Shown: positions 2,069 through 29,494 of the stretch, one piece after another | Numbering within the stretch: the stretch's first letter is position 1 | Layout: every line of letters begins with the position of its first letter | IMG/VR virus record: IMGVR_UViG_3300034375_002447 | Location: 1 to 33,334 of that record | From: a virus | Strand: one strand, 5' to 3' | DNA length: 33,334 nt | Notes under the pieces: model-generated | Databases searched by the model: none | Told to the model about the DNA's origin: nothing | What the model saw: only the letters and a program-made list of their open reading frames with translations | Made by a program: the position numbers and the translations under genes

Positions 2069-2084
2069 GGGGGCAAAACCCCCC
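2069..2084 (-). terminator. intrinsic terminator between convergent operons
   Basis: On the minus strand a GGGGG-TTTTG-CCCCC hairpin is followed by TTATTTTTTTGAC, a good Rho-independent terminator for the leftward replication operon. In the plus direction the hairpin is followed by TACTTATCC, so it is weaker for the lysis operon, although the upstream A-run makes it formally bidirectional. The stop codon of the leftward zinc-protein gene lies at its edge. Confidence 0.75.
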
Positions 2085-2212
2085 TACTTATCCCCCCCAT
2101 ATTTCTCTGGGTGAAGGCAGCCTAGACATATGTCATCGCCAGTTCCTAGAGTAACCCAGTCATCGTTGGCATAGTCACACTGCTTGCCGCAGTATGCGCA
2201 GTTAAACAACAT
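2084..2212 (-). CDS. small zinc-binding protein (two CxxC motifs)
   Basis: From the chosen ATG the protein is 42 residues: MLFNCAYCGKQCDYANDD followed by a second pair, CLGC, then HPEKYGGDK. Two CxxC pairs about 25 residues apart suggest a single treble-clef or ribbon zinc site. The ATG at 2212 is preferred over longer upstream reading because AAGAAGAT precedes it and it overlaps the end of the upstream gene by 11 bases, as is usual in this operon. Function unknown. It is the last leftward gene before the terminator. Confidence 0.6.
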   Translation of the reverse strand: MLFNCAYCGKQCDYANDDWVTLGTGDDICLGCLHPEKYGGDK

Positions 2213-2648
2213 GGATCTTCTTGTATACCTGTGAGTTTTTGCTGCGGTGGCTTTGCGGTTCTTCCGGCCCAAATTCACGCTCCTTCAACTCATCGACCAA
2301 ACGCTCTGCTTTTTCTAGCCAGCTTGTGAACTCTGGTGAACTTTCTCTTTTAGAGGCATGCACCATTGTTGTGTGATCTCTGTTCATGGCATAGCCCATC
2401 CTACAATAAGACAGGGTTGTGTGGTTTTCACACAGCCGCACAAACAGTTGTCGCGCATCCACTAGGTACGCCATCCTGCGCTTTCCACGCAACTCAGCTA
2501 GACTGAAGTTAGTTACTTGCTGCACGATTTCTATGATGTCCAGCGCCTCTAACTCACGGCAGTATTTTTTCCAGTTTTCTGGCAGCATTTGATTAGCCTT
2601 CTGCCGGCCCGATACTGATCTCTCCGATATTGGTATTATCTTTCTCAC
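2202..2648 (-). CDS. stand-alone DnaA domain IV-like DNA-binding protein
   Basis: A 148-residue protein with a clear resemblance to the C-terminal DNA-binding domain of DnaA. Residues 50-72 (ELRGKRRMAYLVDARQLFV) correspond to the RR-x-x-x-x-x-x-ARQ helix, and residues 86-100 (YAMNRDHTTMVHASK) match the DnaA signature GxRDHTTVxHA that reads the DnaA box. There is no AAA+ ATPase domain and no P-loop, so it cannot be an active initiator by itself. It may mark a phage origin, compete with host DnaA, or act as a regulator. Start is GTG, chosen because AAAGGAGG lies 6 bases upstream, the strongest Shine-Dalgarno in the operon. It overlaps genes on both sides. Confidence 0.82.
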   Translation of the reverse strand: MRKIIPISERSVSGRQKANQMLPENWKKYCRELEALDIIEIVQQVTNFSLAELRGKRRMAYLVDARQLFVRLCENHTTLSYCRMGYAMNRDHTTMVHASKRESSPEFTSWLEKAERLVDELKEREFGPEEPQSHRSKNSQVYKKIHVV

Positions 2649-2805
2649 GCTCTTCCTCCTTTAACATTTCCATTGCTACCTCAAAGCAACGCCCTGCGAA
2701 TGTCAGCATTTCTCTGCTGTTCATTTTTTTGATGTGGAGGTTGCCATCAACACTGACAGCAACCCCATCGTTTCTAGGTATTATCAGGAATGGATGCTGG
2801 TGCAT
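2593..2805 (-). CDS. small protein, unknown
   Basis: From the ATG at 2805 this is a 70-residue protein, MHQHPFLIIPRNDGVAVSVD then a helical stretch rich in Glu/Lys (FEVAMEMLKEEEREKDN). I do not recognise it. The start at 2805 is chosen over upstream ATGs because GAAAGGATCA, the ribosome-binding-site motif repeated through the leftward genes, lies 7 bases before it. It overlaps the HTH gene upstream by 32 bases and the DnaA-like gene downstream by 56 bases. Confidence 0.6.
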   Translation of the reverse strand: MHQHPFLIIPRNDGVAVSVDGNLHIKKMNSREMLTFAGRCFEVAMEMLKEEEREKDNTNIGEISIGPAEG

Positions 2806-2989
2806 CTGTGATCCTTTCGATTTCATGCTGAGTAATGTACCAGCGGCCACCCAAACGCTTGCCTTTGATAATCCCCTTGTGGAGCATCGTACGCAGCATG
2901 TTCACCTGAGACTTACTATCGGTGCCAAAGAGCAATAGAGAGGCCTCACGGGGGCTTAGAAGCGCCTTAGAATGGGATGTCTGGGTCAT
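2774..2989 (-). CDS. helix-turn-helix protein (excisionase/MerR-like fold)
   Basis: A 71-residue protein from the ATG at 2989, which has AGAGGA directly upstream. The body LLSPREASLLLFGTDSKSQV followed by LRTMLHKGIIKGKRLGGRWY and ITQHEIERI has the layout of the small winged-helix HTH_17 or excisionase group: an N-terminal tetrahelical start, a G(K/R)xxGGRW(Y/R)I wing and a closing helix. It may be a transcription regulator or an Xis-like architectural protein. No integrase is seen in the window, so an excision role has no partner here. The start lies inside the 3' end of the SSB-like gene. Confidence 0.7.
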   Translation of the reverse strand: MTQTSHSKALLSPREASLLLFGTDSKSQVNMLRTMLHKGIIKGKRLGGRWYITQHEIERITDAPASIPDNT

Positions 2990-3314
2990 CGTCCTCTGCC
3001 TTTGGCTGTGGTGCCGCATATTTAGTACTGATTGCGTTACCGATTGGCTTCATAGCTGGCTGTGAAATGCCGTCAGCGATACTGTCCTCACCCTCGTATT
3101 CAGTGACACGGGAGATGCGAATAGAGATAGTGCCATCCTCGTTGGGGAACAGCGATACTTGGTGGCGCTGTCCATCTCGCAAGGTGATATCCGCATAAGT
3201 CTTTTGCTCAGCATCGTAAGGCTTCCAGTTGCCGTTGCTATACTGCGCCTTACCTTTTCCCTCAGTGTTGGGGAACAGCTTGATGTAGGTAACTGTGTCA
3301 TAGCGTCTAGCCAT
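2967..3314 (-). CDS. SSB-like protein with acidic C-terminal tip
   Basis: A 115-residue protein whose last residues, EDDDPDIPF, match the conserved C-terminal tip of bacterial single-stranded DNA-binding proteins (DDDIPF), the peptide that docks replication and repair partners. The first 75 residues form beta-like strands (YDTVTYIKLF, KTYADITLRD, GTISIRISR) that could be an OB-type fold, followed by a Pro/Lys-rich linker. It lies directly after the annealing-protein gene, overlapping it by 8 bases, which supports a role in recombination or replication. The OB fold is inference; the tail is seen. GGAG lies 10 bases before the ATG. Confidence 0.7.
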   Translation of the reverse strand: MARRYDTVTYIKLFPNTEGKGKAQYSNGNWKPYDAEQKTYADITLRDGQRHQVSLFPNEDGTISIRISRVTEYEGEDSIADGISQPAMKPIGNAISTKYAAPQPKAEDDDPDIPF

Positions 3315-3927
3315 TCTGTTTTAACTCCTTCATGCGCTTCTGGCATAGGTTTTTGATGTTCTGAAAGATCTCAGGAAACTCTTTGTTAGATATTTCCATG
3401 TACTTCTTAGTGAAGTCTGCGTTCATCCAGTCGGTAATCTGCTTCATGTCAAACTCAGGCAGATAAGCCTCTGCTTGCTGTTGCAACTCTAGCAGACTAG
3501 CCGGTGGCTGCTTGGGTGGTGGCATGGATGCAATGGCTTCCTCTTTCCTGCCCACACCATCCATCTCGTTGGCTGACGCATACTCGCCGCCAGCTAGGCC
3601 CAACGATGCCAAGGCACGGCCAATGGCAGATGTCTCACAGTTTTCCAAAGCGCTGGTCTTGTTGACGTTGCCCTGTCCTCTGATCTCCTCTGCCATGCCG
3701 GCACCTACGGTAACGCCGTCCATGTTGGTTATCTTGGCCTTGACGACAACGCGCTGGCCGTCGTCTACCAATATGTGTGTGTCTACACCGTACTCAGTGC
3801 CGTGCATCTGACGGAACGCTTCCATCCTATGCACGACCTGGGTGTATTTCTTGCCGCCGCGCTGAGTGACGCCATGACTGGCGTTTAACTCAGACACAAG
3901 CTGCATAGTTTGCTTCAAGTCAGTCAT
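3307..3927 (-). CDS. single-strand annealing recombinase, ERF/Rad52-like
   Basis: A 206-residue protein that should bind and anneal single-stranded DNA in phage recombination. The core resembles the ERF family: VVKAKITNMDGVTVGAGMAEE, then NVNKTSALENCETSAIGRAL and ASLGLAGGEYASANEM. The pattern ENxETSAIGRALxxLGxxGG is the family signature. The C-terminal third (about residues 135-206) is a separate, Gln/Lys-rich helical region. Start ATG has GGAG 7 bases upstream and overlaps the preceding small gene. Partners are probably the PD-(D/E)XK nuclease at 6255-7148 and the SSB-like protein next door. Confidence 0.88.
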   Translation of the reverse strand: MTDLKQTMQLVSELNASHGVTQRGGKKYTQVVHRMEAFRQMHGTEYGVDTHILVDDGQRVVVKAKITNMDGVTVGAGMAEEIRGQGNVNKTSALENCETSAIGRALASLGLAGGEYASANEMDGVGRKEEAIASMPPPKQPPASLLELQQQAEAYLPEFDMKQITDWMNADFTKKYMEISNKEFPEIFQNIKNLCQKRMKELKQNG

Positions 3928-4129
3928 TCATTTCTCCGCTGGAAACGCCTAGCTTATCAGAGATGAGGTGTACAAACAGTGCCAAACTCTTCTCCATTTC
4001 AGCGACCCTGTTGTTGCTTTCATAGACAGCCTTGTGCAGTTCATCGACGCGCACAAACAAATCGTCGATGCTGTCCTGCATGTCATGTGGTGTGACATGC
4101 GGGGTGTATGTGTCATCAGGATCAGCCAT
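3920..4129 (-). CDS. small coiled-coil protein, unknown
   Basis: From the ATG at 4129 the protein has 69 residues. Residues 17-55 (SIDDLFVRVDELHKAVYESN and NRVAEMEKSLALF) have a heptad-like pattern and should form a coiled coil. AAGGAG precedes the ATG by 10 bases, and the start overlaps the upstream stop by 8 bases, so I prefer it to the longer 85-residue reading. Its place directly ahead of the annealing-protein gene suggests an accessory role in recombination, but I recognise no family. Confidence 0.65.
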   Translation of the reverse strand: MADPDDTYTPHVTPHDMQDSIDDLFVRVDELHKAVYESNNRVAEMEKSLALFVHLISDKLGVSSGEMND

Positions 4130-4625
4130 TTGATACGTTCTCCTTATCGTCACGCAGCACATGCACCAGTTCCTCAACGAAACCCACTGTCAAGCCGTAG
4201 TTTTCGACGCAACCGCGATAACGCTCCAACCATGCAGCCAAAGATACGCCAGCTTGACGCCGCAATTCTGCCTGTGCATTTTCATCGTTGGGATCAAACG
4301 GCTCGTAACCGCCGCCATCTCTGCGCTTGGCGACAGGAGATATGTACGCAGGGTACTCGGTGACCTTGATGGCCAACACCTCGCTGTCCACACTTTCTGT
4401 TTTGGCCACGATACGCAAGCCACTCGCAAGCCTACGCGCCATGTCGATACGAAACTGCCGCGCTGCTTCTGCATCATCCATCCCATAAAACGCCTCATAG
4501 GCCTCATGCTCTGGTTGTTCTTGCAGCCAATCGACAAACTCACCTGGCACAAACATGTTTGCACCTGTTACTTGCAGATAGTCGTCAATGATACGCTGCT
4601 TAGTCTTCTTAGAAAAATTAGCCAT
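4122..4625 (-). CDS. conserved phage protein of unknown function
   Basis: A 167-residue soluble protein that I do not recognise. The N terminus MANFSKKTKQRIIDDYLQVT looks helical, the middle (AEAARQFRIDMARRLASGLR followed by EVLAIKVTEYPAYISPVAKR) mixes helix and strand, and the C-terminal half has a helical stretch around RQAGVSLAAWLERYRGC. A Shine-Dalgarno GGGAGA is close to the ATG. It is the first gene after a long repetitive untranslated leader (4650-4925), so it is the first product of the downstream transcription unit that makes the annealing, SSB-like and DnaA-like proteins. Confidence 0.75.
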   Translation of the reverse strand: MANFSKKTKQRIIDDYLQVTGANMFVPGEFVDWLQEQPEHEAYEAFYGMDDAEAARQFRIDMARRLASGLRIVAKTESVDSEVLAIKVTEYPAYISPVAKRRDGGGYEPFDPNDENAQAELRRQAGVSLAAWLERYRGCVENYGLTVGFVEELVHVLRDDKENVSNG

Positions 4626-4649
4626 TTTATTCTCCCTTAGCTAAAGATT

Positions 4650-4925
4650 GATTGATAGTGGATTGCCTCGCCCAGACAGGCCGCAAAACGCCGGATCTCT
4701 CCACGCCTCAACTTGACCGCCTAAACTTGCCTTCCCACACCGGAACTGAACCGGACAAAACAGAGCGAACCGTGACCGCCTCGCCTATCCTTGCCATGCC
4801 GTAACATGACTTGCCGTTGCAAGCCTCACCATGACCGCCTAGTCCCACCTAACACTGCCAGTCCTGACCATACCGAGACCGCCTCGACATACCAGTCCTA
4901 AACATATCTAACCGCGACCCGTGAA
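4650..4925 (-). repeat. gene-free, GG-doublet repetitive leader
   Basis: This roughly 275-base stretch holds no plausible gene. On the minus strand GG doublets recur every 4-7 bases, for example CGGCATGGCAAGGATAGG at 4784-4801, where GG repeats at exact 5-base steps. A longer unit is superimposed: AGGCGGTCA (plus strand TGACCGCCT) occurs at 4714, 4773 and 4832, two 59-base steps, with a variant at 4876. It sits between a terminator at 4926-4945 and the gene ending at 4122, so it would be transcribed as a 5' leader or act as a protein-binding or promoter region. Possible roles are discussed under findings. Confidence 0.7.
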
Positions 4926-4945
4926 AGGGGCGGCGCACCGCCCCT
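4926..4945 (-). terminator. intrinsic terminator-like hairpin
   Basis: AGGGGCGG-CGCA-CCGCCCCT is a perfect 8-base-pair hairpin just past the stop of the gene at 4955-5716. In the leftward direction it is followed by TTTCACGGG, a short T-run, so termination may be partial. It closely resembles the hairpin after the capsid cluster at 18618-18643. Confidence 0.65.
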
Positions 4946-4954
4946 GTCAAATTA

Positions 4955-5716
4955 TTAGGCTGCTCTGCGCAACCGTTCTTCTTGGATGAACTGCATCAAT
5001 TCCGCTGTCTGTTCATCGGCGCATTCTGGCTGTTCCATAGCCAATTCCTGCACCGCACGCCCCTCTTTAGATGTCTCATCCCAGATTTCTTGCATGTCAC
5101 CCATATCTTCAGAACTGGCCACCTTAAATGTGCCATACATGCCCTTTCCCTTTTCCTGTCGGAAATCACCAATGCCTACGATAGTGCCGGCGTTCTGCAA
5201 CAAAGACACAATGGAATGCGATGATAGAGTCGGTATAACGAACTTGATGTCCACCTCTGCGCACCAGTTAGGCAAATAAGCACGAGTGCGCACATCAGGC
5301 GTCCTGTTCATGTCAGCAGACCGCACAATATCCATCTTCAAGTAAGGCTTACCCCAAATTTGTATATGGCTTTCTGGCAAAAATATCAGGCGCTGCACGC
5401 TGCTCTTTGTAATACCAGCGGTTTCCAATGCAGCGGTAGACATGGCCGCCTTTACGCCAGCGGCTGGGAAGCAAAGGTAGGTGTCGCCTTTCGACTTCTT
5501 ATAAATGCTCTCACGATATTCTTGTTCTGGATTGTGCTTGATATCCTTCTTCTGAGCAGCGGTTTTTTTGCCGCCACCGACAAGCAGATCACGCCACGCC
5601 TTTGCCCCCATACTATTAAAGTACATCGGTGTTTGCCCAATCATGCGCAGCTTGATACGACCCTGCTTAAGTGCATGAATCTCCATAGTTTCAGTAGTTT
5701 TTTTAGTTACGGCCAT
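4955..5716 (-). CDS. conserved phage protein with RAMP-like glycine-rich loop
   Basis: From the ATG at 5716 (GGGAGA 5 bases upstream) this is a 253-residue protein without a recognised enzyme motif. Notable parts are FPAAGVKAAMSTAALETAG (about 88-106), RTRAYLPNWCAEVDIKFVIP (about 149-168) and a C-terminal glycine-rich loop NAGTIVGIGDFRQEKGKGMY (about 180-199) followed by GTFKV. The GxGxxRxxxGxGxxGxF pattern resembles the loop of RAMP/Cas7-type ferredoxin-like RNA-binding proteins, but phages carry uncharacterised families with the same loop, and no repeat-processing partner is present. The start codon at 5716 lies inside the 3' end of the upstream gene. I treat the function as unknown; a nucleic-acid-binding role in the recombination module is reasonable. 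Confidence 0.75.
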   Translation of the reverse strand: MAVTKKTTETMEIHALKQGRIKLRMIGQTPMYFNSMGAKAWRDLLVGGGKKTAAQKKDIKHNPEQEYRESIYKKSKGDTYLCFPAAGVKAAMSTAALETAGITKSSVQRLIFLPESHIQIWGKPYLKMDIVRSADMNRTPDVRTRAYLPNWCAEVDIKFVIPTLSSHSIVSLLQNAGTIVGIGDFRQEKGKGMYGTFKVASSEDMGDMQEIWDETSKEGRAVQELAMEQPECADEQTAELMQFIQEERLRRAA

Positions 5717-6029
5717 TGTTTTCTCCCTGATAGAACTCTTTGTGCCACATGACCATCTGGCCACGCCCTGACAATCCCTTGCGTTTGGTGCCATCTACAA
5801 AGATGATACCTTTCTCTTTTAGCTGTTTGTAACGCGCAGTAACGGTGCTATAACCGTGCTGCGGCAGGGCTTTCAGCACCTCGTCTGAAATGCACCCTGC
5901 TGCACCGAAAAACCAGATTGCATCAGCGACTACGCTTTCCATCTCTGTGGCGTTGATGCTTTCTGCTGCGTCATGACTGGTGGCCGGATCATCGCGGCGC
6001 ACCAGCTTGTATGCAGGGGTGCTATTCAT
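5703..6029 (-). CDS. winged-helix DNA-binding phage protein
   Basis: A 108-residue protein from the ATG at 6029, with GGGGG 5 bases upstream. It has the phage pattern DPATSHDAAESI near residues 14-25, a helical MESVVADAIWFFGAAGCISD, the recognition-helix region HGYSTVTARYKQLKEKGII and a terminal wing KRKGLSGRGQMVMW. This is the usual layout of a small winged-helix family in phage recombination and replication clusters. It overlaps both neighbours (8 bases upstream, 14 bases downstream), indicating coupled translation. It probably binds DNA as a regulator or replication accessory; the target is unknown. Confidence 0.75.
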   Translation of the reverse strand: MNSTPAYKLVRRDDPATSHDAAESINATEMESVVADAIWFFGAAGCISDEVLKALPQHGYSTVTARYKQLKEKGIIFVDGTKRKGLSGRGQMVMWHKEFYQGENNGRN

Positions 6030-6255
6030 TATTGCCCCCATACTTGCTGTCACGGATTTCACGCAGCCTTGCATACAAAAGCATTTCATTTGCAATAATG
6101 CGCAAGTGTTTTGGCTTGTTTTGACCCATCATTTCTCCAAGATCAGGGATGCCAACCCCAAGATTGAAATCTAAGGAAGACACCATCATGTCAAGTTCTT
6201 CCTTAGAAAGCGTGATGTTCACTTTCGCCTTTGGTCGTCCTACTTTATTAGCCAT
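6022..6255 (-). CDS. small protein, unknown
   Basis: A 77-residue protein beginning MANKVGRPKAKVNITLSKEE. The GRPK element is an AT-hook-like basic motif, and the following KVNITLSKEELDMMVSSL has the strand-then-helix layout seen in ribbon-helix-helix proteins, but the match is weak. ATG at 6255 follows GGAGG by 5 bases and shares a base with the stop of the upstream nuclease gene (TAATG). Possibly a small DNA-binding protein; otherwise unknown. Confidence 0.65.
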   Translation of the reverse strand: MANKVGRPKAKVNITLSKEELDMMVSSLDFNLGVGIPDLGEMMGQNKPKHLRIIANEMLLYARLREIRDSKYGGNNE

Positions 6256-7148
6256 TAAAACCTCCATAGTTGCTTGGCTATATCTACGATTGATGGGCCA
6301 TGACGACGCGCTATCTCATTAAAGTCTGGCTGCACTAGGCCGGCCAGATTGCGCCATGATCCGTGTGCGGCTTTCAACAGATTTTGACTTATCTGCCATG
6401 ACCGCACGGCTTCAGCATATGCTCTATCCAAAGCCTCTGGCTTCAACGCATCACAGTTGTCAGCGTTGGCTAGGTAATAGCCTGATGCGCTGACGTATAG
6501 CAGTGATGGTGGTTCACCAGTTGCCTTGGCATAGATTGCTTGCTGAATTTGCTGTTGCGCTGTAGGCACAATGCCGTCTGTCTTGGGTACTCTCCAAGAA
6601 CGGGTGCCGTCTTTGCGCGGTGGGTTTCTAAGGGGTGGCTTGGCCTTCAGATCACACTGGATGCCGCCGCCGCTGTAGTCTTGATAAAGCATGATCGGCA
6701 CATCAATCTCTGGCTCTTTGTGCCAACGCTGATACTCGCCTTCGATCATGTTTGCGCCTGTGAAGCATTCACGCACACCCTGTACGGCATGCAGTATCAT
6801 GTCAGGTATGAAATCTTTGAACGCCTCAAATTCTTCTGCGTCTTTGCCGTCATCCCATGTGCGCGGCTTGTAGCTGTTGTAACGCTCCATCGTCTGCGCG
6901 ATAGCCTTGGCTGGCTCCATGCCGTCTTGCTGCCCGACCATAGGCTGATATCTATCAAGGCCAAGAATTAGGTTTGCACCGTCTTGCACAACGATACCGC
7001 ACCAAGGACGCGCCGCCATTGGCAGCTTGGCACCCATATCACGCACATACAGCTTCAAGATAAACTCATCTTTTGTCTGTGTTGCACCTGATGCGCTGTC
7101 ATGCTTTGCGCCAAACTCTCTGCGATACCCTGGTGTTTCCCATTCCAT
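6255..7148 (-). CDS. RecB/Cas4-like PD-(D/E)XK exonuclease
   Basis: A 297-residue protein that fits the PD-(D/E)XK exonuclease fold. Asp157 in YQDYSGG, the D-x-K element Asp166-Leu-Lys168 (CDLKAK) and the downstream Q-rich helix TAQQQIQQAIYAKATGEPPS followed by LLYVSASGYYLA match the phage RecB/Cas4-like arrangement (D, D/ExK, Q-x-x-x-Y). No Cas4-type cysteine cluster is seen. It should resect DNA ends to make substrate for the ERF-like annealing protein. It is the first gene of the leftward recombination operon, 32 bases downstream of a TGTTGACA operator. Confidence 0.78.
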   Translation of the reverse strand: MEWETPGYRREFGAKHDSASGATQTKDEFILKLYVRDMGAKLPMAARPWCGIVVQDGANLILGLDRYQPMVGQQDGMEPAKAIAQTMERYNSYKPRTWDDGKDAEEFEAFKDFIPDMILHAVQGVRECFTGANMIEGEYQRWHKEPEIDVPIMLYQDYSGGGIQCDLKAKPPLRNPPRKDGTRSWRVPKTDGIVPTAQQQIQQAIYAKATGEPPSLLYVSASGYYLANADNCDALKPEALDRAYAEAVRSWQISQNLLKAAHGSWRNLAGLVQPDFNEIARRHGPSIVDIAKQLWRF

Positions 7149-7978: not shown

Positions 7979-8180
7979 TGGGCTTTACTGTCAATGCAAT
8001 CCGTGATATTTAAGAAATATCTTAGCATTGCCGCGCAGCATACGACGCATTGCTGAGTGCATCGCATTGCACAATGTTATCCCTTTTTTTTATAAAAAAA
8101 TAAGGCATGGCAGGGTGCAACGCACTGCATTCATTGCTACGCGCAGCATTGCTAGGTTGTTTCCTCCCTGAGAAAACTAA
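7979..8180. other. gene-free repeat region, candidate origin or control site
   Basis: No gene is seen here. GCATTGC occurs at 8025, 8047, 8064 and 8146, with near copies between. A perfect hairpin GATATTT-AAG-AAATATC lies at 8005-8021. An AT-rich palindrome TTTTTTTATAAAAAAA lies near 8085-8100, preceded by TTATCC at 8076, similar to the first six bases of a DnaA box (TTATCCACA). Short repeats next to an AT-rich block are the usual look of an iteron-type origin, but they could also be operators or a rightward transcription end. Confidence 0.5.
8139..8152 (+). repeat. 14-bp repeat shared with 11338-11351
   Basis: ACGCGCAGCATTGC occurs exactly here and again at 11338-11351, in the two gene-free regions that bracket the small-gene cassette. 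It contains the GCATTGC core repeated elsewhere in this region. Confidence 0.7.
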
Positions 8181-8201
8181 AGAGGGGCTTTACGCCCCTC
8201 T
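8181..8201 (-). terminator. intrinsic terminator of the small-gene cassette
   Basis: AGAGGGGC-TTTAC-GCCCCTCT forms a strong hairpin. Leftward it is followed by TTTAGTTTTCTC, a T-rich tract, so it should end transcription of the cassette that starts near 11115. The stop codon of the XRE gene lies in its loop. Confidence 0.75.
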
Positions 8202-22593: not shown

Positions 22594-25227
22594 ATGCCAA
22601 AAATACCATTGTACGCAGAAGGCCGTGGAAGCGCTGTAGATCTCGCTACAGGGCGTCTTGGCCCCCAAGCCCCTACAGGTGCCTTTGAAGCGCCTGGACA
22701 GGCCACAGTGCGTGCTGCGGAGGCTCTTGGCAGGGTTGGCACAGAATACGCTAAGAACGCTATGCAGTTTGAAAATGCGCGGCAAAAGTTGGAATTTGAT
22801 TTCCAAATGCAGCGTAAGAACGAGCAAACCAAGACACTTAGCAATCAGTACACCACACGCGCTTATGAGCAATCAGACACATACACGCTAAACAGTCAGG
22901 AGCCTGATCAAGATAAAGCTGTATCTGGTCTAATATCTAGCGTGCAAGCGCCGATCCTGACAGAAATTGACACATTAGACATTACTGACTCGCAGAAAAC
23001 CGCTATCAAAGACAGCGTTCTCAAGCAAATGAACTTCAAGGTAGCTGACGCGAAGAAGTCGGCTTTTCGTATATCAACTATACAAGGTGCAGAGGCTAAG
23101 TCTGGCAAGCTGTCTACTATTCAATCTCAGATTTCGTCTGCGTCTACATATGAAGAATACGCTGCCTTGGCGGCTGAAGCGATGGCAATTTTCGATGATG
23201 CCGCCCTATCTGGACAAAACCTTGGCGTAAGTAAGAATGCTTTTAAGCAAGAAAGTTTGCGGCTGTTCTACGGAAATGGGATCGCAAATGCAGATAGCTT
23301 TGCCTCTCTTGAAAGGCAGCGCACAAACGTATCCGGCGATAACACTTTGAGTTCAGCAACCAAAAAAACCCTGATTGCAAGTATTGATAGCAGAGACACA
23401 CAATTAGAATCAGAAAAACAAGATGAAATTATTGGCACACTCCTGACTGCAAACTTGTCCAAAGAGGAAACTGAAAGTGCTTTAGCGCAGTTGACCAGTG
23501 AAGGCAGTCAGATGATCTACATCAAGCGCGACGATCCAGAGGATGACGTGCTGATTGAGTATGATGGTGCTGGCAATAAGTTTCTTGCAAGAGTCGCCAG
23601 TAGGTTTGAACAAGATGTCAAATCACTGGCCGCACAAAACAACAACGATCTTGTAAACCAAATCTTTCCAACCATCGCTGGCATGGATCGTGATGAACTG
23701 AACCAGCTTATTGATGAGGCTGATACACTCACGGGACGCTTTGATGGTGCTGACAGGAGCATAGCGGCCCTACTTACAGGCGATGCTAATCGTCGTCTGG
23801 ATACTATGGACGCTGAGTTGTCAGCGGAAATAAAAGCAGATATGTCTGCTATAGAAATCAGGACTATTAGTCTAGGGGGCATTTTCGACGAAACCACGCA
23901 GACAATGATTGCAAGCGTTGATGGTCGTATTAGTCAACTTACTGACAATGAAGTGCAGCGCACTTTGTTTAATGAGACAATGGATGGTATGCGCCAAGCT
24001 GGCGTTCTTTATTCTTCAATTAAGTATGGCGGCCCTTCAGACTTGACAGCGGTTAGAAGGTCTATTCGAGACGAAATAAATGATCCTACTAATACGCCGG
24101 AAGATATCCGAATTGCAGAAGCAAGACGCAAGCATTTTGAGGCGCTGGTTGACGCAAGGCAAACAGCGATTGCAAATGATCCTGTTAAGTTTATTCAAGA
24201 TGATCGCGCAGATCAAAACTTAGAAGCAGCCACCACGTCACAGCTAATTGATTTTCAACGCAAAATGGGTATTCCTGATGTGGACATTCGTGTCGCATCT
24301 GACGCTCAAATTGATGCTTTCCAAGGACAGTTCAAAGATCCTAGCCTGTCTTACAATGACAAGTCTAAACTTGGCATATCGTTCATTACGTCGTTTGGCG
24401 TAGAAAACGAAGGCCGCGTAATGCGCAATTTAATGAATCAGGGTGTGCTGACGTTGGCTGACACATGGATCATAGCCAACCCTAACAACGCTGGTGGGTT
24501 TGACATCGAAGCCGCTAATAAACCAGGTGTAGTAAAAGAGCTGAAATCAGCCATAGGCACATCTTCTTACAACGAAATCATGCAAGAGGTCATGGTTCAG
24601 AACGCAGAGTATTCTGGCAGCATAGTTGGCGGTGCGGCTGATAGCATAGTGTCACGCGGCGCTACTGGCTCACGAATGCTGCATGTGACCGCCATGAATA
24701 CGATGATCCAAAACACAGCGGCATATTACATGAACGCCGGAGAAACAGATCTAACCAAGGCTGTAGAACGTGCGGTGGACACAGTAGTAAACAGCCAATT
24801 TGCCTTTGATGAAGTGAATGGCAAGCCGTTCCGCATGCTAAAGGGGCTAGAAGGCTCTTCATCTCAGATTGGCGACATACTGCAATTTTATGTTAATGAC
24901 GATGAAACAAGAGGTGTGATTGCGGGTTTTGCTGACATACCTCCGGCGAATGACTTAACGCCAGATCAGGCGCGTGAAAAGTATCAGGGTGATTTAGCAC
25001 AAGCGTATTGGGTTACATCATCAGATCACAAAACTGTCTACTTGGTTGATCAAACAGGCAATATGGTCAAGCGTAGGGTTGACCCTGGGCCTACTGCAAT
25101 TTCACCACAGGATGCTTTTGTTACTATCAAAATGTCAGATCTTTTGCCCGTCATTAAGGAAATGGATGAACTGTACCCAAGGCCTGTAGACAAGCTGAAT
25201 GAGATTATGCGGAAGGCGTTTAAGTAG
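22594..25227 (+). CDS. internal virion protein, T7 gp15-like
   Basis: An 877-residue mostly helical protein in the position of T7 gp15 (747). The N terminus MPKIPLYAEGRGSAVDLATG is conserved in the family, then a Gln/Glu-rich coiled region follows (FENARQKLEFDFQMQRKNEQ). No catalytic motif is seen. It should assemble in the internal core and be ejected to form the periplasmic DNA channel with the gp14- and gp16-like proteins. It shares its last base with the next start (TAGTG). Confidence 0.83.
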   Translation: MPKIPLYAEGRGSAVDLATGRLGPQAPTGAFEAPGQATVRAAEALGRVGTEYAKNAMQFENARQKLEFDFQMQRKNEQTKTLSNQYTTRAYEQSDTYTLNSQEPDQDKAVSGLISSVQAPILTEIDTLDITDSQKTAIKDSVLKQMNFKVADAKKSAFRISTIQGAEAKSGKLSTIQSQISSASTYEEYAALAAEAMAIFDDAALSGQNLGVSKNAFKQESLRLFYGNGIANADSFASLERQRTNVSGDNTLSSATKKTLIASIDSRDTQLESEKQDEIIGTLLTANLSKEETESALAQLTSEGSQMIYIKRDDPEDDVLIEYDGAGNKFLARVASRFEQDVKSLAAQNNNDLVNQIFPTIAGMDRDELNQLIDEADTLTGRFDGADRSIAALLTGDANRRLDTMDAELSAEIKADMSAIEIRTISLGGIFDETTQTMIASVDGRISQLTDNEVQRTLFNETMDGMRQAGVLYSSIKYGGPSDLTAVRRSIRDEINDPTNTPEDIRIAEARRKHFEALVDARQTAIANDPVKFIQDDRADQNLEAATTSQLIDFQRKMGIPDVDIRVASDAQIDAFQGQFKDPSLSYNDKSKLGISFITSFGVENEGRVMRNLMNQGVLTLADTWIIANPNNAGGFDIEAANKPGVVKELKSAIGTSSYNEIMQEVMVQNAEYSGSIVGGAADSIVSRGATGSRMLHVTAMNTMIQNTAAYYMNAGETDLTKAVERAVDTVVNSQFAFDEVNGKPFRMLKGLEGSSSQIGDILQFYVNDDETRGVIAGFADIPPANDLTPDQAREKYQGDLAQAYWVTSSDHKTVYLVDQTGNMVKRRVDPGPTAISPQDAFVTIKMSDLLPVIKEMDELYPRPVDKLNEIMRKAFK

Positions 25228-26999
25228 TGGTAGACTTTTACGTTCCAGAACAGCAGTACGATCAAAATGCTTTTGATAGTTACTTTGATATATCGAAGGC
25301 TGGCACCCTTGATGTGCTTGGTTCTACGCTAGATGAAACGCTGTATTATAACCCTCTAAGCGCACTCAACCGTACATTTGATCAGTATCTTGGGCCAGGT
25401 GCTAACGGACGCACGCTGTCTGTTGATGAATATCGTGACAGTCAATATTACCGTGAAGGCATTGAGGTTGGCGAAGACGGTATAACAGAAGGGTTGGCAA
25501 ACCTGTTTGCAGAAAGACATGACAGGCGTGCCGGTTTCAACTTCACCCTAAACAGGTCGCGCGGCGGGTTTGGGCTAGGCGCAGCACAGTTTGGCACAAT
25601 GCTGGCTGGCTCTGTGCTTGACCCTCTCAACGTGGCATCAGCGTTTATCCCAGCCGTAGGCCAGGCGCGTATGGCTACAATGGCCGCTAGGTTTGGCAAA
25701 AGTGGCAGTAGACTAATGGCTGGTGCGATTGACGGCGCGGTTGGCGCTGTTGTTGTAGAGCCACTTGTTATAGGCCAAGCATATCTTGAGCAAGATGCTG
25801 ATTATGGCCTGATGGACAGCTTCTTGAATGTAACGTTTGGCTCTATCCTCGGTGGTGGCTTGCATGTTGGTTTTGGCAAGATATCAGACAGGATAGAAAA
25901 AAGCGCAGTTAGCCAAGAGGCGTTGGCGCGTGCAGTAGCACAGGCAGTTACAGATCAGCCGGTCACAGCAGGGCGTCTGGTGGAGCAGCAAGAAGCTGCG
26001 GCAGATGCTGATATTATCGCTAGGGCAAACGAGCGTTTAGCTAAAGATCGTACCGTTACTGGCGTCGAGCGTAGGTTTGACCCAGAAACCGGCGACATGG
26101 TTGAAGAAACCGTGCTGCGTGCGCCTACAGAGGTGCCAGAGCCACGTCGCAAGGGCAAAGCGCGTCCAGAGATTTTACGCGCACAAGAGCCTAAAACACT
26201 CATACAGTACATTAGGGCAAGGGGTGGCATAGATCCCAACAGTCAAGGTGCCGCTGATCTTAAAGAGGTTATACCCTCTGCGAAGGCTGGTAAGTTTTAT
26301 GTTAGCGCTGCTAAGGGTGGGCGATCTGTAGATGATATGCTGACGGCAGCAAGAGAAGACGGCTTTCTGCCGGCAGAGATTGAAGGTGTGCCGGATGAGG
26401 TTGGCATCAACGATTTGATTGACGCCGTAAGAGAAGACAAGTCTGGTAACAAACAATACTCGCAAGCTGATCAAGACGCTCTTGCAGCGTTTGAAGAGGC
26501 GCAAAGAATACAAGACTTTCTTGATCGTCGCGGCATAGACCCTACTGGCCTAACAAATGACGAGTTAGATCGTGTCATTGCCGACGCAGAGTTGGCTGAG
26601 TTCAATCAAACAGCCTCTGTAGGCGTTGACCAGAGTGACGTGCAGCCACAATCTTTAGAAGGTGCGCCACTTACACAGCAAGAATCCATGAACGCTCAGA
26701 ATGAGGCACAAATACAAAACTACAATCTTGGTGTAGATGCCGATCAAAAGCCAAAGCTAGATGAGATGGATCAAGCTGGTATGGATCTGTCTATTCAAGA
26801 GTTCCAAGAAACGGTAGATGAGATTGCGCTACTTGAGCAAGACATAGAAGTGTTGCGTGCTGACATAGATATTCCTGCCGATATGGATGAGGACATTAGA
26901 ATAGCTGATGAAGCTATGCGTCGTGCAACAGACTACATGGAAGAGGCGGCTAGAACAGCGGCAGTCTGTGTAAATAGGAATGGGCGGGGTGTAGGATGA
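25227..26999 (+). CDS. internal virion protein, gp16-like N-terminal part
   Basis: A 590-residue protein with GTG start sharing a base with the upstream stop. N terminus VVDFYVPEQQYDQNAFDSYF is helical, then a hydrophobic Gly/Ala stretch at about 110-215 (GAAQFGTMLAGSVLDPLNVA, AIDGAVGAVVVEPLVIGQAY, FGSILGGGLHVGFGKI) that could insert in membrane, and a charged C-terminal half rich in Asp/Glu. Together with the next gene it makes a total near the size of T7 gp16. No lytic transglycosylase motif (E-S-x-x) is obvious. The last residues (RTAAVCVNRNGRGVG) meet the next start in an ATGA overlap. Confidence 0.78.
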   Translation: MVDFYVPEQQYDQNAFDSYFDISKAGTLDVLGSTLDETLYYNPLSALNRTFDQYLGPGANGRTLSVDEYRDSQYYREGIEVGEDGITEGLANLFAERHDRRAGFNFTLNRSRGGFGLGAAQFGTMLAGSVLDPLNVASAFIPAVGQARMATMAARFGKSGSRLMAGAIDGAVGAVVVEPLVIGQAYLEQDADYGLMDSFLNVTFGSILGGGLHVGFGKISDRIEKSAVSQEALARAVAQAVTDQPVTAGRLVEQQEAAADADIIARANERLAKDRTVTGVERRFDPETGDMVEETVLRAPTEVPEPRRKGKARPEILRAQEPKTLIQYIRARGGIDPNSQGAADLKEVIPSAKAGKFYVSAAKGGRSVDDMLTAAREDGFLPAEIEGVPDEVGINDLIDAVREDKSGNKQYSQADQDALAAFEEAQRIQDFLDRRGIDPTGLTNDELDRVIADAELAEFNQTASVGVDQSDVQPQSLEGAPLTQQESMNAQNEAQIQNYNLGVDADQKPKLDEMDQAGMDLSIQEFQETVDEIALLEQDIEVLRADIDIPADMDEDIRIADEAMRRATDYMEEAARTAAVCVNRNGRGVG

Positions 27000-29494
27000 G
27001 CATTAAAGTTTGCGCGGCAGAACTACGCAAGATTGCCCAAGACAAAGACATTGCGGTTGCTCAGGATGAGATCGACTCCATCCTTAAGATTATGCAAGAC
27101 AAGATTGACCGTCGCGGTGGTGTGTACGGTGACAGCGAACTTGGCGAGTTAATTCAAGAGGCAAAAGATCTGGCGCAACGGGCTAGGATCGAAGCCGCGA
27201 TACAAAAACGTAACCGTCTAATCAATGCGCGTGCATACGCTACTGTTATGACAGCACTGCGTCAGGAGCCTAATGATCCTGGAAAGGCGTTGTCAGCCAT
27301 ACTTGTTGGCGATGCGCGGCGCAGCTTGTATAGCGTTGATGCCAAACAACGCAGTGTGTTTCTTGACCACAGCGGCGCGTTGGTAGCGGAACTAAAGCGT
27401 AATGATCTGCTGGATATCTTTCGTTCTAACGAACTTGATGAAAAGATTTATCAAGAGATGTTTGACGGCCTTGGCACTAGCGGCAGCAAAGAAGCGCAAC
27501 AAATTGCAGAGGCTATCAAAAAAGTACAAAAGCGACTTCTTGACCGCAAAAACCGCAACGGCTCCAACATTGGTGAGTTGGAAAATTATGTTGTGCGTCA
27601 GCATCATGATCCGCTGTTGATTCGCGGCAAAGGCACAGAAGAAGACAAACAAGAGTGGATAACTTTTGTGTCCGAAAACATGGACATAGAAAAGACACTG
27701 GCTAACAAGCCGGACGACATGACAGAAATAGAGTTTCTTGGCTCAATGTACGATAACCTTGTCAGCGGAAACCACATGAAGGCTGACGGCGTAGGCGGTG
27801 TTGGTGGTGCGCAACCAGAGTTCAAGGGACCAATGAACCTTGCCAAACGACTTAGTGCGCAACGTATTATCCATTTTAAGGACGGCAAGTCTGCGTTGTC
27901 TTACGCAAACAAATATAGCCGTATGAAACTTTCAGAGGCTGTGTATCAGGGCATTTCGCATGATGCGCAAGCTATTGGTTTGCTTGAGACTTTTGGCACA
28001 AATCCAAAAGCTATGTTTGAAAAGATACTTTCTGAAGTTAGGCCAAAGGGTGTTGCAAAGCCAATCAAAGAAGGCCGGCTCAAAAACCAATTTGCAGAAT
28101 TAGACGGCACAACTCGTGCATTGGGGGCTACACAACCCATTCTCAATACGAGCGTTACTTATGCCGGTATAGCTGCTGGCTTCCGCATGGTGCAGTCGAT
28201 GGCCAAGCTTGGTTTTGCAACCATTTCGTCATTTTCAGACATTGCTACCAAGGCTTCATTCATCAACGCGAATACAGAACGCAATATATTTGGTTCTTAT
28301 GCAACGGCTTTGCGTGACACATTCCGCTTGTTTAACAGTGAAGAACAAAAGGAATTAGCATATCTGCTGAGTGTAGGTGTAGAGAACGAGTTGGCTGACG
28401 TTCATGCACGGTTTGGTGCGAATGACAGCGGCCCTGGCATGATATCAAAAGCGCATCAGTTATATTTTAAGCTGAATGGCATGCAATGGTGGAATAGCAC
28501 GCAGAAAGTTGGGGTTGCACGCTTGTTAGCAGCGGATCTTGCCAACTATTCAAGTAAACCATACGGCAAAATACCCGCTGAAACCCGCAGATTGCTTAGT
28601 CTTTACAACATTAACGAGGCAGAGTGGTCGCTGTTTCGCGGCATGGACATGAAGGCTGCTGATGGCCGCAAGTATCTTGTGCCTGACATAGCTGATGAAA
28701 TCCCTGTAGAGAAGATCGACCCGCTTATTGCTGAACGCACGGGCCAGTTAGACGTAACGGACAAAATGCGTCAGCAGTTTCGTGATGATTTGCGCACTAA
28801 AATATCAGCTTACTATTCAGATAGCGCGGATGTTGCAATTCCAACGCCAGGTGCCAGAGAGCGTGCGATAATGAACCAAGGCTTGCCACGCGGCACAGTG
28901 GCCGGTGAAGCAATCCGCATGATTATGCAGTTAAAGGGTTTCCCAATTACTTATGTGACCAAAGGATTGGGGCGGCAGAAAGCAATGTCTGGTTATTATG
29001 GCATTGCCAAAATGATGGTCGGCACAACCATGATGGGCTATCTGTCAGTCACCCTTAAAGATATCCTCAAAGGCAAAGAGCCTATGGAGGTGTTCAGTGA
29101 TGATTATACGCTAAACAAAGACTTGTTGTTTAAGGCCTTCACGCAAGGCGGCGGCGCTGGAATCTATGGAGACTTTATTTTTGGCGAGTTTAACAGATAT
29201 GGCCAAGGTCCATTAGAAACACTGGCTGGCCCGTCATTTGGCACAGCAGCGGATGTGTTGCAAATATTTGGCAAATTTAGAAGCGGTGATGACGCTGCGG
29301 CAGAAACTGTAAGGCTTGCTATGCGTAACATACCTGGCGCTAACCTGTTCTACGCTAAATTGGCTTTGGATTATTTGTTTATGTACGAACTTACAGAGTT
29401 TGCAAACCCAGGGTATTTCAAGCGCATGGAACGTCGTATGAAAAAAGACACAGGGCAAGAGTTTTACTTCCCACCATCGCAGTATGTACGATAG
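26996..29494 (+). CDS. internal virion protein, gp16-like C-terminal part
   Basis: An 832-residue largely helical protein. The N terminus MSIKVCAAELRKIAQDKDIA starts a long helical stretch, the centre has NYVVRQHHDPLLIRGKGTEE, and the C terminus has Phe/Gly-rich helices (MVGTTMMGYLSVTLKDILKG, QGGGAGIYGDFIFGEFNRYG) like the membrane-active end of ejection proteins, finishing GQEFYFPPSQYVR. It fits the large ejected DNA-translocation protein that in T7 is a single gp16 (1318 residues). Translation is probably coupled to the previous gene through ATGA. No enzyme motif was recognised. Confidence 0.8.
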   Translation: MSIKVCAAELRKIAQDKDIAVAQDEIDSILKIMQDKIDRRGGVYGDSELGELIQEAKDLAQRARIEAAIQKRNRLINARAYATVMTALRQEPNDPGKALSAILVGDARRSLYSVDAKQRSVFLDHSGALVAELKRNDLLDIFRSNELDEKIYQEMFDGLGTSGSKEAQQIAEAIKKVQKRLLDRKNRNGSNIGELENYVVRQHHDPLLIRGKGTEEDKQEWITFVSENMDIEKTLANKPDDMTEIEFLGSMYDNLVSGNHMKADGVGGVGGAQPEFKGPMNLAKRLSAQRIIHFKDGKSALSYANKYSRMKLSEAVYQGISHDAQAIGLLETFGTNPKAMFEKILSEVRPKGVAKPIKEGRLKNQFAELDGTTRALGATQPILNTSVTYAGIAAGFRMVQSMAKLGFATISSFSDIATKASFINANTERNIFGSYATALRDTFRLFNSEEQKELAYLLSVGVENELADVHARFGANDSGPGMISKAHQLYFKLNGMQWWNSTQKVGVARLLAADLANYSSKPYGKIPAETRRLLSLYNINEAEWSLFRGMDMKAADGRKYLVPDIADEIPVEKIDPLIAERTGQLDVTDKMRQQFRDDLRTKISAYYSDSADVAIPTPGARERAIMNQGLPRGTVAGEAIRMIMQLKGFPITYVTKGLGRQKAMSGYYGIAKMMVGTTMMGYLSVTLKDILKGKEPMEVFSDDYTLNKDLLFKAFTQGGGAGIYGDFIFGEFNRYGQGPLETLAGPSFGTAADVLQIFGKFRSGDDAAAETVRLAMRNIPGANLFYAKLALDYLFMYELTEFANPGYFKRMERRMKKDTGQEFYFPPSQYVR

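Follow-up and report, generated by a model that had tools for sequence, protein, structure and literature searches.

What would a phage do with a protein that consists of the DNA-binding domain of DnaA, without the motor that goes with it? The question was raised by an ORF in the window, by which the entire IMG/VR virus record of 33,334 bp is meant, a record that is possibly incomplete.

The phage and its lineage

The window phage, which is marine, was placed among the podoviruses by its terminase, portal/connector, tail tubular and capsid proteins, and its terminase shared 51% identity with those of the HTVC010P-type pelagiphages. HTVC010P-type phages are widespread. The G+C content was 0.49 in the window and 0.31-0.33 in the HTVC010P-type pelagiphages, which suggests that Pelagibacter is probably not the host. 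A host call through prophage-like terminases in genome contigs was abandoned, as the best matches reached 48-58% and came from mixed taxa. No polymerase, helicase or primase was recognised in the window by the Pfam and PHROG searches, or among the listed genes of the sister records compared. The tRNA, Rfam and defence library searches gave zero matches.

Identification of a DnaA domain IV protein

The following features were assigned to the ORF and its upstream region:

2202..2648, minus strand: stand-alone DnaA domain IV (Bac_DnaA_C) protein, GTG start, 148 aa
2349..2540, minus strand: DNA for the DnaA_C core (profile positions 3-67, E=2.2e-16)
2649..2661, minus strand: strong Shine-Dalgarno site, AAAGGAGGAAGAGC ahead of the GTG, -11.6 kcal/mol

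The ORF and its coordinates, taken from an earlier note, were real, and only the strand had to be corrected to minus (2648..2202); the plus strand across 2202-2648 was full of stops. The motif NRDHTTMVHA was located in the minus-strand translation at residues 89-98, as had been claimed. Residues 37-100 matched Bac_DnaA_C (PF08299) with 53.8 bits (E=2e-14), above the curated cut-off of 31.5. The best sequence matches among solved structures were DnaA DNA-binding domains, headed by that of M. tuberculosis DnaA (3pvp, E=2.4e-7). The full-length DnaA model TIGR00362 scored 45.6 bits against a cut-off of 343.9, in agreement with the proposed absence of an AAA+ domain, and domain I was missing from the 148-aa protein as well. 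By tblastn, the protein matched nothing in the phage collection at 1e-3 and gave four weak matches only against plasmids.

An AlphaFold2 model was built from 37 viral sequences and showed a pLDDT of 94-98 over residues 31-120. The structures ranked at the top by Foldseek were DnaA domain IV, and VIA-align gave Z scores of 12.9 (3pvp) and 12.0 (1j1v) with an rmsd of 1.7, far exceeding the unrelated rows. The structural match extended over residues 33-123, and the tail at residues 132-148 was disordered. The helical fold of DnaA domain IV was thus obtained by the structure prediction that the earlier note had called for, and since five of the six base-contact residues were also retained, the 148-aa protein can be identified as a free DnaA domain IV with hardly any doubt.

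The residues of E. coli DnaA described as base-specific are R399, P423, D433, H434, T435 and H439 (PMC7561715). R399, D433, H434, T435 and H439 were retained in the window protein, and P423 was replaced by C. Compared with bacterial DnaA domain IV (1j1v, 3pvp), the protein shared the fold over ~90 residues and these five contacts; it differed by the substitutions L422 to Y, R401 to A and R405 to D in addition to that of P423, and by the lack of the AAA+ domain III and of domain I. The protein is a motorless relative of DnaA domain IV, and its DnaA-box reading surface is largely intact.

Relation to known stand-alone DnaA_C proteins

Stand-alone DnaA_C proteins are a known kind, present in many phages; the patchy occurrence and the motif drift described below are mildly new. 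Such proteins were encoded in 19 Pelagibacter phage records and were nearly constant among the HTVC010P-type, where several carry the GenBank label 'DNA replication initiation (DnaA)'. According to Chen et al. 2019 (PMC6811365), every HTVC010P-related genome has DnaA in its protein list. In the fully read pelagiphage records, the gene order was nuclease, annealing protein, small ORFs, DnaA_C and convergent genes.

The HTVC010P-type phages (e.g. HTVC034P with gp20, Skadi-4 with gene 30) resembled the window in several respects: a stand-alone DnaA domain IV (160-180 aa in the pelagiphages) with invariant K/R/R and DHTT and a downstream W, a podovirus genome with an HTVC010P-like terminase, and the position of DnaA_C downstream of the nuclease and annealing protein. 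However, the proteins were only ~23-29% identical to the window protein, had a longer N-terminus, and carried QDHTT where the window protein has RDHTT. Outside the domain, W110/E112 were shared after it and the N-terminus was not alignable. In addition, the gene was nearly constant in the pelagiphages, whereas its distribution in the lineage of the window was patchy.

The same fold was found in other stand-alone phage DnaA_C proteins, namely PHROG 27829 'DnaA-like replication initiation protein', phrog_30669, phrog_16091 and many BFVD entries named 'Chromosomal replication initiator, DnaA C-terminal'. Unlike those PHROG members, the window protein reached no PHROG model. The NCBIfam models of PRK06030-type short DnaA_C proteins (NF004688, NF004687; 123-140 positions) covered a DnaA_C-like stretch, but the 20.3 bits obtained were far under the curated cut-off of 136. 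At least 72 further loci with DnaA_C ORFs were found by the IMG/VR scan; among the matches listed, all such ORFs were 83-245 aa long and none was a full-length DnaA. Their neighbours in other viral contigs included SSAP, RecT and SSB genes. No experimental study of such a phage protein was found in the literature searched, which mostly excluded subscription papers.

Three viral loci differed in architecture. In L066 (7470-8207) and L054 (7815-8510), DnaA_C was joined to another helix-turn-helix domain (HTH_38/GcrA-like or HTH_23), and L054 carried two DnaA_C genes. The 222-aa DnaA_C protein of L034 (415-1083) matched HNH-endonuclease PHROGs weakly in its C-terminal part, and no second Pfam domain was found in it.

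An optional gene under selection in the early operon

The DnaA_C gene was the last but one of an early operon that also encoded a nuclease, an annealing-type protein and an SSB-like protein:

2084..2278, minus strand: Cys-rich ORF (CxxC..CxxC, a pattern read off the sequence), 64 aa, running into the 3' end of DnaA_C and bounding the cassette slot on its 3' side
2593..2850, minus strand: 85-aa ORF that bounds the cassette slot on its 5' side
2774..3019, minus strand: 81-aa helix-turn-helix protein with sub-threshold HTH_17 / excisionase-like matches
2967..3314, minus strand: 115-aa protein with an SSB-like acidic C-terminal tail DDDPDIPF, without a Pfam or PHROG match
3307..3927, minus strand: probable single-strand annealing/recombination protein (phrog_11717)
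6255..7148, minus strand: probable nuclease, homologous to the HTVC034P 'putative nuclease' (E=8e-8)

Judging by its tail, the 115-aa protein is probably a phage SSB, possibly a divergent one. A role of the 3307..3927 product in annealing or recombination is likewise probable and was deduced from synteny with a pelagiphage 'single strand-annealing protein'.

The ribosome site of DnaA_C was, as the earlier note had claimed, the strongest of the operon: when 12 starts of the region were compared, the runner-up reached -8.4 kcal/mol. Such a site suggests that the protein may be made early and in quantity. The length and start of the protein were fixed in its relatives, and a dN/dS of ~0.11-0.20 was calculated for the window gene against homologues ~76-81% identical to it. 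These values correspond to purifying selection and thus the protein is under selection.

Related phages were compared by synteny anchored on the annealing gene. In carriers, DnaA_C lay at a fixed offset between the 85-aa ORF and the Cys-rich ORF, whereas in sisters with annealing proteins 82-87% identical the two ORFs adjoined each other and DnaA_C was gone. The records G004-G006 lacked the gene, yet most of their core genes were ~84-95% identical to those of the window. Whole-record searches detected DnaA_C in 3 of 21 records and in 0 of 9 further record handles, most of the latter being repeats of earlier records; these absence counts apply to records that may be incomplete and in which a substitute gene could pass unrecognised. 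The gene was not found in the temperate pelagiphage HTVC028P either. On the annealing-gene tree, at least five gains or losses of DnaA_C were counted, gain and loss being indistinguishable, and two of them were forced by well supported branches. The DnaA_C gene is therefore a selected yet optional, accessory cassette within this phage lineage.

Where the slot was occupied, the reading helix varied. Fewer of the six base contacts were present in the homologues than in the window protein. In its nearest other relatives (76-81% identical), T435 was replaced by S, giving RDHST. In the same genomic slot, H434 was replaced by R in L170 (41% identical, RDRTS) and in L162/L159 (29% identical, KDRSS). 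The series RDHTT, RDHST, RDRTS and KDRSS at one slot indicates that the reading helix drifts inside one lineage. The loss of the RDHTT contacts from homologues had been named in the earlier note as an argument against its own reading; the contacts were kept in the window protein and partly lost at the same slot elsewhere.

DnaA boxes and the candidate origin

No exact TTATNCACA box was present in the window. The clusters of DnaA boxes anticipated by the earlier note did not appear in the window, the sisters or the pelagiphages: near-boxes were neither enriched nor clustered (at most 3 per 300 bp) in a scan with the consensus box, which other motifs could escape. An apparent depletion of DnaA boxes relative to Markov shuffles disappeared when permuted motifs were used for comparison. 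None of the 8-mers specific to the genomes carrying DnaA_C was box-like, and the top shared 8-mer resembled a ribosome-site leader.

The TTATCC near 8076, which had been connected with a candidate origin, does exist (at 8077). However, the window contained 8 such sites against 9.6 expected and the site was not conserved in sister phages, so it was rejected as a DnaA element or a link to an origin. The non-coding DNA at 7979-8189, which lies between convergent genes, is conserved; it contains repeats of GCATTGC and CGCGCAGCAT as well as an A/T-rich palindrome, and it represents a candidate origin or regulatory element. This element was as well conserved in phages lacking DnaA_C as in carriers, and its TTATCC was not conserved. 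Nothing connects the protein to this region. The idea that the protein tethers a replisome there was not borne out, as the sisters keep both the core genes and the element without DnaA_C and the gene is thus not needed for tethering.

Another non-coding stretch of ~330 bp, at 4626-4954 inside the early operon, contained imperfect repeats around TGACCGCCT; blastn found no counterpart of it in the sister phages compared.

Proposed role of the protein

We proposed, with a probability of roughly 0.4, that the window protein competes for, or modulates, sites bound by DnaA, perhaps those of the host. Made early and in quantity, it would occupy DnaA-box-type sites (TTATCCACA-type boxes) in double-stranded DNA, a binding that is predicted. 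Alone, it would be unable to melt an origin or load DnaB because the AAA+ motor and domain I are missing. Competition or modulation would most likely take place at the host oriC and/or at DnaA-controlled promoters, because no cluster of boxes exists in the phage genome. The host replisome might in this way be freed for the phage, which must depend on it because no recognisable polymerase, helicase or primase is encoded. The domain IV identity, the five retained contacts, the dN/dS of 0.11-0.20, the strongest Shine-Dalgarno site and the absence of own boxes are consistent with such action, and the clean presence or absence among phages with core genes ~84-95% identical argues for an auxiliary, takeover-type role. 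Against it stand the RDHST, RDRTS (H434R) and KDRSS motifs, which for those members misfit conserved host boxes, the near constancy of the gene in the HTVC010P-type pelagiphages (19 records), where it resembles a core replication gene, and the second helix-turn-helix domain of some viral DnaA_C proteins, which points to transcription control.

This role is the least unlikely of three and was preferred over those of an initiator and a regulator. An origin-recognition protein would bind the phage origin and recruit host DnaB and the host replisome via partners, and the place of the gene beside SSB-like, annealing and nuclease genes in an early DNA-metabolism operon agrees with this, as do the same position and the replication initiation label in HTVC010P-type phages, the SSAP, RecT and SSB neighbours in other viral contigs and the lack of any other initiator recognised in the window. 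Nevertheless, the gene is missing from G004-G006, from more distant records and from HTVC028P while sister core genes are intact; because closely related phages do without it, and with neither a box cluster, nor a motif specific to carriers, nor a conserved TTATCC at 8077, this role appears somewhat unlikely. If the fold were instead a reader tuned to phage promoters and operated an early-to-late switch, the last-but-one position in the operon, the drift of recognition residues at one slot (expected if own sites co-evolve) and the fusions to an HTH or GcrA-like domain in L066 and L054 would be accounted for. Sisters with the same operon layout lack the gene, no enriched motif specific to carriers was found and the reader of the window protein is still the canonical RDHTT, and transcription regulation was accordingly judged rather unlikely. 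The patchy distribution and the decayed contact motif of some homologues might also be expected of a functionless decaying or chance DnaA fragment, but a dN/dS of ~0.11 already contradicts this, and given the fixed length and start in relatives, the strong Shine-Dalgarno site and the many independent phage contigs carrying DnaA_C, decay is extremely improbable.

A broader and quite speculative extension of the competitor role is that the DnaA domain IV cassette of marine phages is optional and quickly retuned and serves as a dominant-negative competitor or as a re-addressed reader of replication-control sites. Such a cassette, if real, would let phages switch the initiation of host replication, and near-identical phages would differ by its gain or loss; if host initiation were blocked by the protein, the phage would have a simple means of taking over its host. 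The matter bears on how phages of the HTVC010P group start replication when they encode neither a polymerase nor a helicase that can be recognised. The natural plus/minus series of near-identical phages makes the role of a lone DnaA reader directly testable, and bench work would be best spent on the patchy occurrence and the retuned reading helix.

Two of the sister records without DnaA_C also contained genes absent from the window. The stretches G004 24497-29011 and G005 2576-6965 (together loci L257-L260) contained a gene resembling DNA cytosine methyltransferases and a block of three genes that were nearly identical (94-99%), one of them similar to a queuosine-precursor transporter; these names were given from the sequence, without a family search.
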